Source of the DNA: Acidimicrobiia bacterium
Lineage (GTDB): Bacteria; Actinomycetota; Acidimicrobiia; Spongiisociales; ZC4RG35
NCBI GenBank assembly: GCA_013812505.1
Contig: JACCTH010000010.1
Coordinates: 1 to 43,692, forward strand
Direction: 5' to 3'
DNA: 43,692 nucleotides
Notes under the pieces: model-generated
Told to the model about the DNA's origin: nothing
The model's input: only the letters and a program-made list of their open reading frames with translations
Database searches by the model: none
Part shown: positions 6,617 to 43,692 of the stretch, in pieces
How the letters are laid out: each line of letters starts with the position of its first letter
Numbering within the stretch: position 1 is the stretch's first letter
Made by a program: the position numbers and the translations under genes

Positions 6617-8341
6617 ATGAGCCCTAGTGGGAGCGACGAGACATCTGAGTTGCGCCGTCAAGTCGGCGTGCTGGAAGACGAAGTGGTCAGCCTTCGTCGG
6701 CGTTTGCAGGATGCCCCGCGTCGAGTCTTGGAGATGGAAACTCGGCTGAACGAGGCCCAGGAGAAGCTCAGCCGGGCCCTTGGCCAGAACGACCGGCTCG
6801 CCACCGTCCTCGAAGAAGCGCGTGAGCAGCTCGCCGTGCTACGAGCCGAGGTCGACAAGCTCACCTCGCCACCAAACAGCTTCGGCACCGTCACCTCGAT
6901 CAACGACGACGGCACCGTCGACCTCGTCTCCGGCAACCGCAAGCTGCGCGTCGCCGCCCAGCCCAATGTCGAGGTCAAGCTCTTGCAGAAGGGCCAGGAG
7001 GTTCTTCTCAACGAGTCGTTCAGCATCATCGATGTGCGCGCTTTCGATCCCACCGGCGACGTGGTCCGGGTGCGGGAGCAGCTCGACGATGGGCGCCTCG
7101 TGGTCATCGCCCACACCGACGATGAGCGGGTCGTCAACCTGGCCGACTCGATGCAAGACGTCAAGATCCGCCCCGGCGACTTCGTCCGGGTCGATATCCG
7201 GGCCGACCTGGTTATCGAGCGCCTGGCCCGTCCCGAGGTCGAAGAGTTGGTGTTGGAGGAAATCCCCGACGTCACCTACGAACAGGTCGGTGGATTGGCC
7301 AACCAAATTGAGGAGATTCGAGACGCGGTCGAATTGCCCTACATGCATCGCGACCTCTTCCTCGAATACGGCTTGGAGGCCCCAAAGGGAATCCTGCTCT
7401 ACGGCCCTCCCGGCTGTGGCAAGACGCTGATCGCCAAAGCGGTCGCCAACAGCTTGGCCAAAGCTGTGGCGGAGCGGACCGGCGAGCCCAACGCCCGCAG
7501 CTACTTCCTCAACATCAAAGGCCCCGAGCTCCTGAACAAATGGGTCGGGGAGACCGAACGCCAGATTCGTCAGATCTTCTCCCGCGCCAAGGAAAAGTCC
7601 GACGAAGGAGTTCCCGTCATCGTCTTCTTCGACGAGATGGACTCACTCTTCCGCATCCGCGGGAGCGGGATCAGCTCCGACGTGGAATCCACCATCGTGC
7701 CCCAGCTTTTGTCGGAGCTCGACGGGGTGGAGTCGCTCAAGAACGTGATCGTCATCGGTGCCTCCAACCGCGAAGACTTGATCGACCCTGCCATCCTCCG
7801 GCCGGGGCGGCTCGATGTGAAGATAAAGATCTCCCGTCCCGACACCGCCGCCGCCCGCGCGATATTCGGGATCTACCTGAACCCGGCGGTGCCGCTCGAC
7901 GCCGACGAGCTCGCCGCCTGCGAAGGTGATGCCCAGCGGATGCTGAGTGAGATGATCGACTCGACGGTTGGGGCGATGTATTCCGACGGCGAAGAGAACC
8001 GATTCCTCGAGGTCACGTATGCGAGTGGTGACCGCGAGGTTCTCTATTTTCGTGATTTCTCCTCAGGGGCGATGATCGAGAACATCGTCCGCCGTGCGAA
8101 AAAGGACGCCATCAAACGGCAAATCGCCGGCGGGACCCACGGCATCCGCCGCTCCGACCTGCAAGCAGCCATCAAACAAGAGTTCCGTGAGCACGAGGAC
8201 CTTCCCAACACCACCAACCCCGACGACTGGGCCAAGATCTCCGGCAAGAAGGGGGAGCGGATCGTGTATGTCCGCACCCTGATCGGTGGGGATGCCGAAA
8301 GCCGGACCATCGAAGCTGTCACCGGGGGGCAGTACCTTTAG
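6617..8341 (+). CDS. arc: Proteasome-activating AAA ATPase ARC/Mpa
   Basis: 574 residues. An N-terminal coiled coil (about 5-85, for Pup capture) is followed by tandem OB-like domains (about 95-235). One AAA+ module has Walker A GPPGCGKT at 263-270, Walker B VFFDEMDS around Asp339 and the SRH near [16 protein letters not shown]. The C-terminus ends GGQYL, the motif with penultimate Tyr that docks into the 20S alpha-ring pockets. The hexamer binds pupylated proteins, unfolds them and feeds the PrcBA core. It starts the arc-dop-pup-prcB-prcA run, with dop 4 nt downstream. The ATG at 6617 is preferred because AGGAG is 6 nt upstream. Confidence 0.97.
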
Positions 8342-39572: not shown

Positions 39573-40619
39573 ATGATCGACCGAGTAGTCGTGGCCGAGC
39601 CGCGGGGCTTTTGCGCTGGCGTGGAGATGGCCATCAAGGCGTTGACCTGGATGGTCCGCCTTTTCGAGCCGCCGGTGTACTGCTACCACCAGATCGTCCA
39701 CAACGAATGGGTGGTGAAGGCGTTCGAACGGGTCGGGGTGCGATTTGTCGATGACATCGGCGATGTCCCCATTGGGGCTCCCATCATGCTTTCCGCGCAT
39801 GGATCTTCTCCCGAAGTCGTGGCCGCGGCGGCTGATCGAGCGGCAGTCGTCATTGATGCAGTTTGCCCGCTCGTGACCAAAGTCCACCACGAGGTCAAAC
39901 GGATGGCCAACAATGGATTCGACATCATCTATGTCGGCCATCGCGGCCACGACGAAGCTCTCGGTACCCTCGCCGAGGCCCCCGAGCAGATGACCCTCGT
40001 CGAGCCGGACGACGGACTCGATCGTTTTCACGCCGCAGATCCAGCCAAGGTCGCACTCTTGGCGCAGACCACGCTCGGAACCTATGAATGGCAGGAAGTG
40101 CTCGACCGGGCCTCAGCTCGGTTCCCAGATCTCGTCACCTCGCGCAAGAGCGACCTTTGCTACGCCACCACCAATCGCCAGGAGGCGGTGCAGGCGCTTG
40201 CCAAGGAATGTGAGCTGATCCTGGTCGTCGGGTCGGAGAATTCCTCCAACACTCAGGCCTTGGTGCGGGTAGCGCGCGAGCACGGCGTGGACGCCCACCG
40301 CATCGACCGTGCGTCAGACATCGAAGAGGCGTGGCTTCTGGAGGTGAGTGTGGTCGGTCTCACCGCAGGTGCATCTGCCCCCGACCATCTGGTCACCGAG
40401 GTCATCGATCGCTTGAACCCGGCTAAAGGCTTCGAACTGCTCGCGGTCACCGACGAAGAAGAATACTTCCCCCTCCCTCCTCAGCTCCGTTCCTTCGTTA
40501 CCACTTTGCAGCATTTGGTCGAGGCTGGTTTCACCGCCGTCGAGGCTGGCGCCGGACCCCTCGAACGTGATCGAGAGTGGACTGCGACCGAGGCGCTTTC
40601 ACTTATCGCCGGGAGATGA
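39573..40619 (+). CDS. ispH: 4-hydroxy-3-methylbut-2-enyl diphosphate reductase
   Basis: 348 residues. The three Cys that hold the [4Fe-4S] cluster are Cys14 (PRGFCAGV), Cys98 (DAVCPLVTKVH) and Cys196 (SDLCYATTNRQ). GHRGHDEALGT has the conserved Glu of the active site. It makes IPP and DMAPP in the non-mevalonate pathway. The C-terminal part is longer than in E. coli (about 25 extra residues). The der start overlaps its stop (ATGA). Confidence 0.96.
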   Translation: MIDRVVVAEPRGFCAGVEMAIKALTWMVRLFEPPVYCYHQIVHNEWVVKAFERVGVRFVDDIGDVPIGAPIMLSAHGSSPEVVAAAADRAAVVIDAVCPLVTKVHHEVKRMANNGFDIIYVGHRGHDEALGTLAEAPEQMTLVEPDDGLDRFHAADPAKVALLAQTTLGTYEWQEVLDRASARFPDLVTSRKSDLCYATTNRQEAVQALAKECELILVVGSENSSNTQALVRVAREHGVDAHRIDRASDIEEAWLLEVSVVGLTAGASAPDHLVTEVIDRLNPAKGFELLAVTDEEEYFPLPPQLRSFVTTLQHLVEAGFTAVEAGAGPLERDREWTATEALSLIAGR

Positions 40620-41932
40620 GCGGCCGGCTTCCGATCGTGGCAGTCGTTGGCCGCCCCAACGTTGGGAAGTCGAGCCTCGTGAACCGGATCGTCGGGGGAC
40701 GGCAAGCAGTGGTTGAGGAGCGGCCGGGTGTGACCCGTGATCGTCGCAACTTCGAAGCAGACTGGAACGGCCGCAGTTTTGCGCTGGTGGACACTGGTGG
40801 CTGGGAACGCGATCCCGCCGAGGCGGTCAGCGAGTCGATCAAGGCCCAAGCCGAGATTGCCTTGAGTGGCGCCGATCTCGTCCTCCTCGTGATCGACGCG
40901 CGGGTCGGCATCACCGAGGATGATGAAGGGGTGGTCAACCTGCTGCGCAGGGCCGACGTACCCGTCATCCTCGCGGCCAACAAGATCGACGACCGAAGCC
41001 ACGAACAAGCGTTGGCCGACCTGTGGGCGGTCGGCCTCGGCGAGCCGATGGGTGTCTCGGCGTTGCACGGCCGGGGAATGGGCGAGCTCCTCGACCGCTT
41101 GGTCAAGCTCCTGCCGCCCGACGAATCGGTGCCCGCGAAGGACGACTTGCCGCGGCTGGCGTTGATTGGGCGACCTAATGTCGGCAAGTCGACCTTGCTT
41201 AATCGGCTCGTGGGGGAGGAGCGGGTGATCGTCTCTCCGACCCCGGGCACTACCCGTGACCCCATCGACGTTGAGGCGGAGATCGACGGGACGCGGTTCG
41301 TGATTGTCGACACCGCTGGGATTCGCCGGCGCCCACAGATCACCGAGTCGGCCGACTTTTACGCCGTCGATCGCGCCCGCCGGTCGCTGGCCGAAGCCGA
41401 CGCTGCGGTGGTTTTGATCGATGGGATCGAGGGCGTCACTCAGCAGGATCAACGAATCATCGATGAAGCGGTCGAGGCGGGGGTTTCCATCACCATCTTG
41501 CTGAACAAATGGGATCGGGCGCAGAGTCTCGAGGAACGCGAAGACGCCACCCGTAGCGTCGAGGACCGTCTCGGGTTTGTGCCCTGGGCGCCAATCATGC
41601 GCGGTTCGGCCCTCACCGGCGCTCGATTACAACGTTTGGGGGCGTTCATCGAGCAGGGTCTCGAGGCGCGGCAGCGTCGCATCGCCACTGGTGAGCTCAA
41701 TCGAATGATCTCGCGCTGGGCTGCCGCCCATCCACCCCCCGTTCGCAAAGGACGCCGGCCACGGATCCAGTACGCGGTCCAGGCCGGGGTCGCCCCACCC
41801 ACCTTCGTGCTCTTCGTCGCCGGTGGCGAGCTCGGCTCTGACTATCTCCGCTTCATCGAGAACCGCCTCCGAGAGGAGGTCGATTTCGAGGGCACCCCGC
41901 TTCGCATCCTCACTCGAAGCGGCAAGCGATGA
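40616..41932 (+). CDS. der: Ribosome biogenesis GTPase Der (EngA)
   Basis: 438 residues with two G domains: P-loop GRPNVGKS at 12-19 and again near 185-192, DTGGWE and DTAGIRRR as G3, NKID and NKWDRA as G4. The KH-like C-terminal domain includes RPRIQYAVQAGVAPPTFVLFV. Der acts in 50S subunit assembly. The ATG overlapping ispH (ATGA) is used; the longer frame from 40577 lies within ispH. Confidence 0.95.
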   Translation: MSGRLPIVAVVGRPNVGKSSLVNRIVGGRQAVVEERPGVTRDRRNFEADWNGRSFALVDTGGWERDPAEAVSESIKAQAEIALSGADLVLLVIDARVGITEDDEGVVNLLRRADVPVILAANKIDDRSHEQALADLWAVGLGEPMGVSALHGRGMGELLDRLVKLLPPDESVPAKDDLPRLALIGRPNVGKSTLLNRLVGEERVIVSPTPGTTRDPIDVEAEIDGTRFVIVDTAGIRRRPQITESADFYAVDRARRSLAEADAAVVLIDGIEGVTQQDQRIIDEAVEAGVSITILLNKWDRAQSLEEREDATRSVEDRLGFVPWAPIMRGSALTGARLQRLGAFIEQGLEARQRRIATGELNRMISRWAAAHPPPVRKGRRPRIQYAVQAGVAPPTFVLFVAGGELGSDYLRFIENRLREEVDFEGTPLRILTRSGKR

Positions 41933-42078
41933 CCGATCCGTTCCTTCCTGATGAGGAGCCCGCCCCGGACTTGCCAAGCCCCTGGGGGTTCCGAATCTTC
42001 ATTGTCCTCGCCACGATCTACTTGCTCTACAGGCTGGGCCAAGGCATCGCCTGGGTCGTCACGCGGCTAGCGACCTGA
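41929..42078 (+). CDS. 49-residue single-span membrane protein downstream of der
   Basis: The ATG at 41929 overlaps the der stop as ATGA. The 49 residues comprise an acidic, Pro-rich N-terminus (TDPFLPDEEPAPDLPSPWG), one hydrophobic helix about 22-34 (IFIVLATIYLLY) and the ending TRLAT. Coupling and the clear membrane profile support it as a real gene. Family unknown. Confidence 0.65.
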   Translation: MTDPFLPDEEPAPDLPSPWGFRIFIVLATIYLLYRLGQGIAWVVTRLAT

Positions 42079-42082
42079 CTTG

Positions 42083-42580
42083 GTGACGCGCGAGGCCACC
42101 GTCGCCAGGGTTCACTTGTACCTCGACCTTTTCGATGCCCTATCGATCACGGTTTGGATCGGTGGGGGTTGGGGCGTCGATGCGCTACTCGACGAGCAGA
42201 CCCGTCCGCACGCGGACAACGACATCGTTGTCTCCGAAACGGAGGCGCAGATTCTTCGCAAGGCGCTGCTCGAAGCCGGCTTTGGCGACATTCCGCGTGA
42301 CGACACCAGAGCGTGGAACTTCGTGATGGGGGAACCGGGCGGCAGTGAGATCGACTTCCATGTCATCGTCTTGGACGACACCGGCGACGGCATCTACGGC
42401 CCAGCCCAGAACGTAGACGTCATTCCGAGAGAGGCTCGTGCCAGCTTCGGGTACATCGGCGGGCGTGAGGTCCGCTGCCGGTCGGCCGAATACCAGATCC
42501 GCTCGCATTTCGGCTACCAACTGAAGGCGAAAGACATTGCCGATGTTGCAGCCCTCAGATACCGGTTCGGCATTCCGTAG
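42083..42580 (+). CDS. Nucleotidyltransferase, LnuA/ANT(2'')-like
   Basis: 165 residues, GTG at 42083 (TTG 42080 is also possible). WIGGGWGVDALLDEQTRPHADNDIVV is the LnuA/ANT(2'')-like nucleotidyltransferase pattern with catalytic Asp pair D-N-D, and GSEIDFHVIVLDD gives a further acidic residue. VPxEARASFGYIGGREVRCRS and the helical C-terminus KAKDIADVAAL follow as in that family. Relatives adenylylate lincosamides or aminoglycosides, but many genomic members are uncharacterised, so a resistance role is not assured. It lies between housekeeping genes and the repeat-flanked TA module. Confidence 0.75.
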   Translation: MTREATVARVHLYLDLFDALSITVWIGGGWGVDALLDEQTRPHADNDIVVSETEAQILRKALLEAGFGDIPRDDTRAWNFVMGEPGGSEIDFHVIVLDDTGDGIYGPAQNVDVIPREARASFGYIGGREVRCRSAEYQIRSHFGYQLKAKDIADVAALRYRFGIP

Positions 42581-42776
42581 ACACGAGGAGGTGGCACCAT
42601 TCCTCTTTGAACGCAAGTCGTTCAGCTCTCCGATCCGTCCGCTTGGCACTCACCCTCGCCTCCTGCCAGATCCCACCTCAGACTGGACGCATCGTTGTAG
42701 GTCATGGTTAAGCACACGCCGGATGTCGAAGCCACAGTCATCGAGCTTGCCAGCGGCGACTCCGTTGTGATCGGCG
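42581..42776. other. Noncoding stretch between the nucleotidyltransferase and the left repeat
   Basis: No supported gene. A 28-codon frame from ATG 42704 ends within the left repeat and is not convincing; it may be a remnant. The gap marks the left boundary of the repeat-flanked module. Confidence 0.4.
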
Positions 42777-42850
42777 TGTTCTGTAGGTGATTTTGGTGGC
42801 TATGGAACCACGCGAACCTAAGGTTTGATTGGTGGTCGGGCTGGCGAGAT
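42777..42850. repeat. Left direct repeat flanking VapBC, with truncated tRNA-Pro 3' end
   Basis: This 74-bp block matches 43587-43660 with 69 identities, offset exactly 810 bp. It includes TGGTCGGGCTGGC, the 3' end of tRNA-Pro on the minus strand (CCA, discriminator, acceptor and first T-stem bases), then diverges, so no functional tRNA is here. Core features such as CGCGAACCTAAGGTTTG are shared by both copies. Confidence 0.8.
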
Positions 42851-42877
42851 GCGAGGTGCACGGAGTACTACTGCTGT

Positions 42878-42883
42878 TAGCAT
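42878..42883 (+). promoter_or_regulatory. Leaderless -10 of vapBC-like pair
   Basis: TAGCAT is 6 nt before the ATG at 42890; no Shine-Dalgarno is present. It lies 27 bp downstream of the left repeat. Confidence 0.5.
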
Positions 42884-42889
42884 CGAAGT

Positions 42890-43201
42890 ATGACTCCATC
42901 GAAGCGGCGTCTCACCGTGACCGTCGATCCCGAACTTGTCGAAGCCGGAAACCGCGCCGTGGCCGAGGGCAAAGCGGACTCACTCAGCGGCTGGGTGAAC
43001 GGTGCGTTGGAAGAGAAGATGCACCGAGACCAACAGCTGGCTCATCTGCGGGCGGCGATAGCGGACTACGAAAGGGAGTTCGGCGAGATCACCGCCGCCG
43101 AGATCGCAGCTCAACAGCGGGCGGATCGACAGCACGCGGTTGTTGTCAGGGGCCGAACGACGAAAGCACGATCGCGAAACAAGACGAGGCCCCCCGCGTG
43201 A
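42890..43201 (+). CDS. VapB-like RHH antitoxin
   Basis: 103 residues. The N-terminal RRLTVTVDPELVEAGNRAVAEG and SLSGWVNGALEEKM look like a ribbon-helix-helix DNA-binding domain. An acidic/charged helix (about 45-75) and a basic, disordered tail follow. It overlaps the PIN toxin by GTGA. It is the antitoxin of a VapBC pair and likely autorepressor. Confidence 0.8.
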   Translation: MTPSKRRLTVTVDPELVEAGNRAVAEGKADSLSGWVNGALEEKMHRDQQLAHLRAAIADYEREFGEITAAEIAAQQRADRQHAVVVRGRTTKARSRNKTRPPA

Positions 43202-43575
43202 CGCTCGTGCTCGACAGCGGCGCCCTGATCGCCCTCGAACGAAACGAGCGAGCGATGTGGGTTCGCCTCAAGGCATCCGAGCTCGCCGGCGAGATTCCGG
43301 TAACCCACGGGGGCGCGCTGGGACAGGTGTGGCGCGGCGGCCCACGGCAGGCACGGTTGGCACATGCGCTTCAGGGGGTCGATGTCCGCCCGCTTGACCG
43401 CGCACTCGGCCGGGCCTCCGGCGAGTTGCTTGGCACCACAGGCTTGTCCGACGTCATCGATGCTGCGGTCGTCCTTCTCGCCGCAGACGGGGACGAGATC
43501 GTAACGCTGGACCGCGATGACTTCGAGTACCTCGTCGCCGCAACTGGTCGGCACGTGGAGTTGATCCGCCCCTGA
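43198..43575 (+). CDS. VapC-like PIN-domain toxin
   Basis: 125 residues from GTG 43198. TLVLDSGALIALER gives the first active Asp6 and Glu; LGTTGLSDVIDAAVVLLAADGDEIVTLDRDDF holds the other two Asp positions of a PIN domain. VapC toxins cleave tRNA or rRNA. GRASGELLGTTGLSD and the short C-terminus match actinobacterial VapC. The pair lies between two 74-bp repeats, so it could be a small mobile or duplicated unit. Confidence 0.85.
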   Translation: MTLVLDSGALIALERNERAMWVRLKASELAGEIPVTHGGALGQVWRGGPRQARLAHALQGVDVRPLDRALGRASGELLGTTGLSDVIDAAVVLLAADGDEIVTLDRDDFEYLVAATGRHVELIRP

Positions 43576-43586
43576 CCGACTGCGAC

Positions 43587-43660
43587 TGTTCTGAAGGCGA
43601 TTTTGGTGGCTATGCAACCACGCGAACCTAAGGTTTGGTTGGTGGTCGGGCTGGCCAGAT
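43587..43660. repeat. Right direct repeat, runs into tRNA-Pro
   Basis: Matches 42777-42850 (69/74). Its right end is part of the intact 3' half of tRNA-Pro (minus strand); the match stops inside the T-loop area. About 56 bp of the repeat is 3'-flanking sequence of the tRNA. Confidence 0.8.
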
Positions 43661-43692
43661 TTGAACTGGCGTCCTCTTGACCCCCAGTCAAG
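43643..43692 (-). tRNA. tRNA-Pro(GGG), 3' half only (partial)
   Basis: Read on the minus strand, the window edge enters at the anticodon stem: stem CTTGA/TCAAG around the loop CTGGGGG, with anticodon GGG after T33. Variable loop AGGAC, T-arm GCCAG-TTCAAAT-CTGGC, acceptor CAGCCCG, discriminator A and encoded CCA follow. The D-arm and 5' acceptor strand lie beyond the window. Confidence 0.9.

Follow-up and report, generated by a model that had tools for sequence, protein, structure and literature searches.

A putative small insertion carrying a vapBC-like pair at the 3' end of a tRNA-Pro(GGG) gene in an Acidimicrobiia genome

Islands integrated into tRNA genes have an intact tRNA end on one side and a displaced 3' fragment in direct orientation on the other, and the Islander definition requires a length of 2-200 kb and an integrase in or overlapping the island; T-loop or junction crossover sites are common among them (PMC4383910). 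REP elements of the GTAG and CGTC families are short, multi-copy palindromes located mainly between convergent or same-direction genes (PMC3733652), and VapBC type II toxin-antitoxin systems are overlapping operons in which the antitoxin comes first.

Here we describe a locus at the right end of a 43,692-nt stretch of DNA (the window, contig JACCTH010000010.1 of assembly GCA_013812505.1 from an Acidimicrobiia bacterium). As in Islander-type islands (PMC4383910), a tRNA has its cognate 3' fragment downstream in the same orientation (42833-42850), with a T-loop-type start. In contrast to such islands, the unit is 810 bp long (0.81 kb versus at least 2 kb), most of its repeat lies outside the tRNA, and a vapBC-like pair alone lies between the repeats while the integrases of the genome are located elsewhere. 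Since the missing integrase and the short length fail two Islander filters, we did not file the unit as an island. The features of the locus are as follows:

40577-41932, plus strand: der (EngA GTPase), conserved anchor gene (profile match, conserved order)
41932-42081, plus strand: conserved small protein that follows der and forms the left edge of the variable slot (conserved order)
42080-42580, plus strand: nucleotidyltransferase (PF10706), accessory, in the same slot and outside the repeats (sporadic, 4/59 relatives)
42777-42836, no strand assigned: REP-like repeat, left copy (sequence, genome-wide matches)
42833-42850, minus strand: displaced 18-nt tRNA-Pro 3' tip at the left repeat (17/18 identical)
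42851-42889, plus strand: short region preceding vapB, probable promoter/operator (an inverted repeat lies at a comparable distance in several homologues)
42890-43201, plus strand: vapB-like antitoxin, probable ribbon-helix-helix (RHH), 103 aa (sub-threshold match to the YlcI/YnfO N-terminal family; paired with vapC in homologous loci)
43198-43575, plus strand: vapC-like probable PIN toxin, 125 aa, GTG start (homologues 56-75% identical; best Foldseek matches PIN/VapC but weak)
43587-43646, no strand assigned: REP-like repeat, right copy, between convergent vapC and tRNA-Pro, its final 4 bases being the tRNA ACCA end (query positions 3-60 match genome-wide)
43643-43660, minus strand: tRNA 3' tip within the right direct repeat, from the T-loop end to ACCA
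43643-43692, minus strand: tRNA-Pro(GGG) 3' half, from the anticodon arm to the ACCA end, where the contig ends (sequence; 5' half on contig C2; conserved neighbour of der in the order)

Composite direct repeats at the tRNA-Pro(GGG) end

A direct-repeat search of 42000-43692, the last 1.7 kb of the window, revealed a single family, the 74-bp pair at 42777-42850 and 43587-43660, whose copies lie 810 bp apart and are 69/74 identical (93% over 74 nt), differing at five positions. On the minus strand, the right copy runs on into CTTGACTGGGGGTCAAG-AGGACGCCAGTTCAAATCTGGCCAGCCCGACCA, the 3' half of tRNA-Pro(GGG) with its 3' end at 43643, and the left copy carries the 18-nt 3' tip alone. Both observations agree with the original prediction. 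A degenerate second tRNA-Pro gene at the left copy was ruled out, because the similarity breaks off after 18 nt. We also found an exact 21-nt match to the tip in the genome G024, which we took as chance; no tRNA surrounds it and the region reads as protein-coding.

ARAGORN calls no tRNA at the window end because the window and its contig (C14) stop within the anticodon arm. The matching 5' half is located on contig C2 of the same genome (6973-7014), and the two halves joined form a normal tRNA. On C2 (L115, 6973-7016), the 5' half reads CTTGACTGGGGGTCA and then enters unrelated DNA at the anticodon stem-loop instead of the tRNA 3' half, and C14 ends at the same tRNA point. A short stretch further along C2 resembles the DNA adjoining a displaced tRNA fragment in the related genome G005. 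The C2/C14 junction could stem from mixed strains with and without an element, from inversion via the palindromic anticodon arm or from a chimeric contig. That the locus itself is an assembly artefact is suggested by its position, with the window stopping at a contig end within the tRNA; however, both repeats and vapBC are internal to the contig and the five differences between the copies are unlike a copied assembly error, and we regard this explanation as highly improbable.

When the genome was queried with the right repeat copy, 67 matches were obtained, which merged into 40 independent sites outside the locus, and most of the 67 did not extend past query position 60, the start of the tRNA. 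The 74-bp repeat is therefore composite, with about 56 bp of dispersed REP-like palindrome and 18 bp of tRNA, and the idea of a pure tRNA attachment site was ruled out since 56 of its 74 bp are dispersed repeat. The original interpretation was partly supported; on the nature of the repeat it was not supported in the form given. It had also named wide occurrence of the repeat without any tRNA as evidence against itself; this is what we found for the 56 bp, but the tRNA tip is present in none of the 40 other copies.

The repeat copies consist of two palindromic modules, AACCTWAGGTT and GGTGGCATAGCCACC, and form near-perfect hairpins in some cases (z of -9.9 and -11.1 for the two copies folded). 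As in a REP family, the many dispersed palindromic copies are mostly intergenic and lie at the 3' ends of genes, frequently between convergent ones, although the placement is approximate owing to a simple ORF caller. Examples in this genome (G000) are L013:1962-2060 and L028:2029-2093, and some copies are perfect long hairpins. A search of 59 relatives did not find the family in any of them, and the repeat had no match in viral contigs. A REP transposase (Y1_Tnp/RAYT, PF01797), the cognate RAYT that accompanies the GTAG class, had no match in the genome (assembly 93% complete). Judged by sequence, the repeats are a lineage-specific REP-like family, which differs from the described REP elements (PMC3733652) in these two respects and matched no described sequence class.

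Past the end of the dispersed repeat, the left copy matches the tRNA at 13/14 positions and the best of the 40 other copies at 9/14, indicating that the tRNA segment was truly duplicated as well. Furthermore, at repeat positions 1, 7 and 30 the left and right copies share states that are rare among the other copies. From the tip match, which is beyond chance, and these rare states, the sequence indicates that the REP-like repeat and the tRNA tip were really duplicated together at the tRNA-Pro locus. Among all REP-bearing sites of the genome, the tip is duplicated here alone.

The vapBC-like pair between the repeats

The 736 bp between the repeats contain 39 bp, vapB, vapC and 11 bp, and nothing else. 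The GTG start of vapC overlaps the vapB stop (GTGA at 43198), an arrangement shared with VapBC operons, and the antitoxin gene is first. The absence of an integrase from the insert, as originally predicted, was confirmed. Of the RHH antitoxin and PIN toxin described there, an overlapping two-gene pair was confirmed as the sole content, but neither protein reaches a Pfam or NCBIfam cut-off. A PDB sequence search matched no PIN protein. Foldseek with the AlphaFold model (pLDDT 72) gave VapC/PIN structures as the best matches, albeit weak ones (E about 0.05, probability about 0.9), and the usual second acidic PIN residue, unlike in VapBC type II toxins, is not evident. Since no family cut-off was passed, no PIN structure was matched by sequence and the Foldseek E value was about 0.05, the predicted pair is probably, not certainly, a toxin-antitoxin system, and its PIN and RHH assignments are weakly supported.

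The homologous pairs (56-75% identity) come mainly from metagenome-assembled genomes labelled Acidimicrobiia or other actinobacteria. The VapC-like family (43198-43575 and homologues L095-L106) is conserved, with invariant Q43 and W45-R46-G47-G48, and matched nothing by sequence in Pfam, NCBIfam or the PDB. None of the homologous vapBC loci yielded a tRNA-Pro(GGG), no vapC relative was found on viral contigs, and plasmids gave a single distant match (45%).

The der-tRNA-Pro(GGG)-pgsA slot in relatives

The gene order aroA-cmk-ispH-der-small protein-tRNA-Pro(GGG)-pgsA-gcvH-fha-merR-dac-hpt recurs across the order, and C14 together with reversed C2 fits it in this genome. We compared the presence of vapC in one same-genus genome (G001) and 32 other same-family genomes; it was absent from G001 and from 31 of the 32, the sole match (1/33) being 41% identical. 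In the loci examined from relatives, the der-tRNA slot contained no vapBC. Because vapC is nearly absent from relatives and the nucleotidyltransferase is sporadic, the interval 42082-43642 is lineage-specific accessory DNA; as for a tRNA-integrated island, the insert is missing from nearly all related genomes, and the predicted addition of vapBC at the tRNA is supported as a lineage-specific one. Meanwhile, the anticipated empty site with one repeat copy was not seen in a close relative, because all 59 relatives searched lack the repeat family, and in the same-genus genome a different element occupies the site and the tRNA points the opposite way. The orientation of the tRNA in this slot also varies between genera, and ispH likewise flips relative to der (loci L066-L093).

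In G035, an intact tyrosine integrase ends 35 bp from the 3' end of tRNA-Pro(GGG), and in G001 the C-terminus of a tyrosine integrase adjoins this tRNA. Displaced tRNA 3' fragments that start at the anticodon stem-loop are present in G001, G005 and G034. In relatives of this order, the tRNA-Pro(GGG) next to der is a hotspot that has been targeted by integration repeatedly, and this shared use, with the side and orientation of the displaced fragment, fits the predicted insertion at the tRNA 3' end. The crossover starts at the anticodon stem-loop in the relatives' islands versus the T-loop in the window's repeat.

These anticodon-loop islands at the same tRNA raise the alternative that the locus is the remnant of a larger island of that kind, in which deletions eliminated the integrase together with the cargo and cut the left attachment site back to its final 18 nt. 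C14 ends exactly at the anticodon-loop crossover, and on C2 other DNA follows the tRNA 5' half from this point, in line with such an island. However, two precise deletions would be required, the REP-like repeat would be needed in both attachment sites, and no phage or island gene is left, all of which make this history unlikely.

The genome holds 18 integrase matches, in keeping with the non-autonomous option of the original prediction, which had called for integrases elsewhere; seven are within about 500 bp of tRNAs. These tyrosine integrase domains lie on contigs C42, C91, C29, C90, C96, C32 and C27 of G000, and ARAGORN names the adjacent tRNAs on the first four as Asn, Phe, Arg and Val, respectively. 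The seven contigs possibly carry further islands.

In G053, a one-contig genome, four tandem 130-bp copies lie behind the intact tRNA-Pro(GGG), each comprising the 3' end of the tRNA and 99 nt of downstream sequence (L079, about 7575-8170). Such tandem copies would be a precedent for duplication of vapBC, the REP-like repeat and the tip, with subsequent loss of the left vapBC. Yet no trace of vapC is present left of the left repeat; we consequently rejected tandem duplication of the whole unit, and the version with later loss has very little probability. The missing remnant speaks for insertion.

Possible origin of the 810-bp unit

The best reading, to which we assign a probability of roughly 0.5, is a small insertion, either non-autonomous or decayed, at the tRNA-Pro(GGG) 3' end. 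A DNA circle would have carried vapBC and a copy of the tRNA 3' tip with the REP-like repeat, and would have recombined in a Campbell-type manner with the matching tip and repeat beside the tRNA, so that the tRNA end on the right stayed functional and the displaced tip came to lie on the left. We infer that this explains most simply why a composite repeat is duplicated and encloses a complete vapBC. The 810-bp unit would have moved as one piece, either by a tyrosine integrase that acted in trans or was later lost, given the T-loop-type site, or by homologous recombination through the repeat, and the toxin-antitoxin pair may favour its retention. A more specific form is doubtful, namely a minimal mobile cassette in which a lone toxin-antitoxin operon uses a dispersed hairpin plus tRNA tip as attachment site and resident integrases in trans at the tRNA-Pro hotspot.

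Several observations stand against the insertion, as follows: First, no integrase lies in or beside the 0.81-kb unit, and both properties are outside the Islander filters. Second, the T-loop site is unlike the anticodon-loop site of the relatives. Third, the repeat is mostly host-dispersed, and hence its length alone is no proof. At last, the right REP copy between convergent vapC and tRNA is in an ordinary REP position.

The repeat pair and the vapBC pair could also stem from separate events: a REP-like copy could have taken the 18-nt tRNA flank to a nearby position (or gene conversion could have done so), and vapBC could have entered the slot independently. The presence of the repeat family at 40 other sites and its absence from the 59 relatives point to a probably recent spread, and the nucleotidyltransferase was also gained in the same slot. 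On the other hand, no other repeat copy was seen carrying the tRNA flank, vapBC leaves only 39 and 11 bp of the interval between the repeats unoccupied, and the genome yielded no REP transposase; this combination of events is a tentative alternative, somewhat unlikely in our estimate.

If the 810-bp unit is mobile, it would represent an addiction unit of extremely small size that has no integrase and uses a tRNA site, and it would fall under the size limit of a published island finder. Even without mobility, the locus shows that direct repeats at tRNA ends can consist mostly of a dispersed repeat, and that the tRNA-Pro(GGG) by der is a site of repeated integration within this actinobacterial order.
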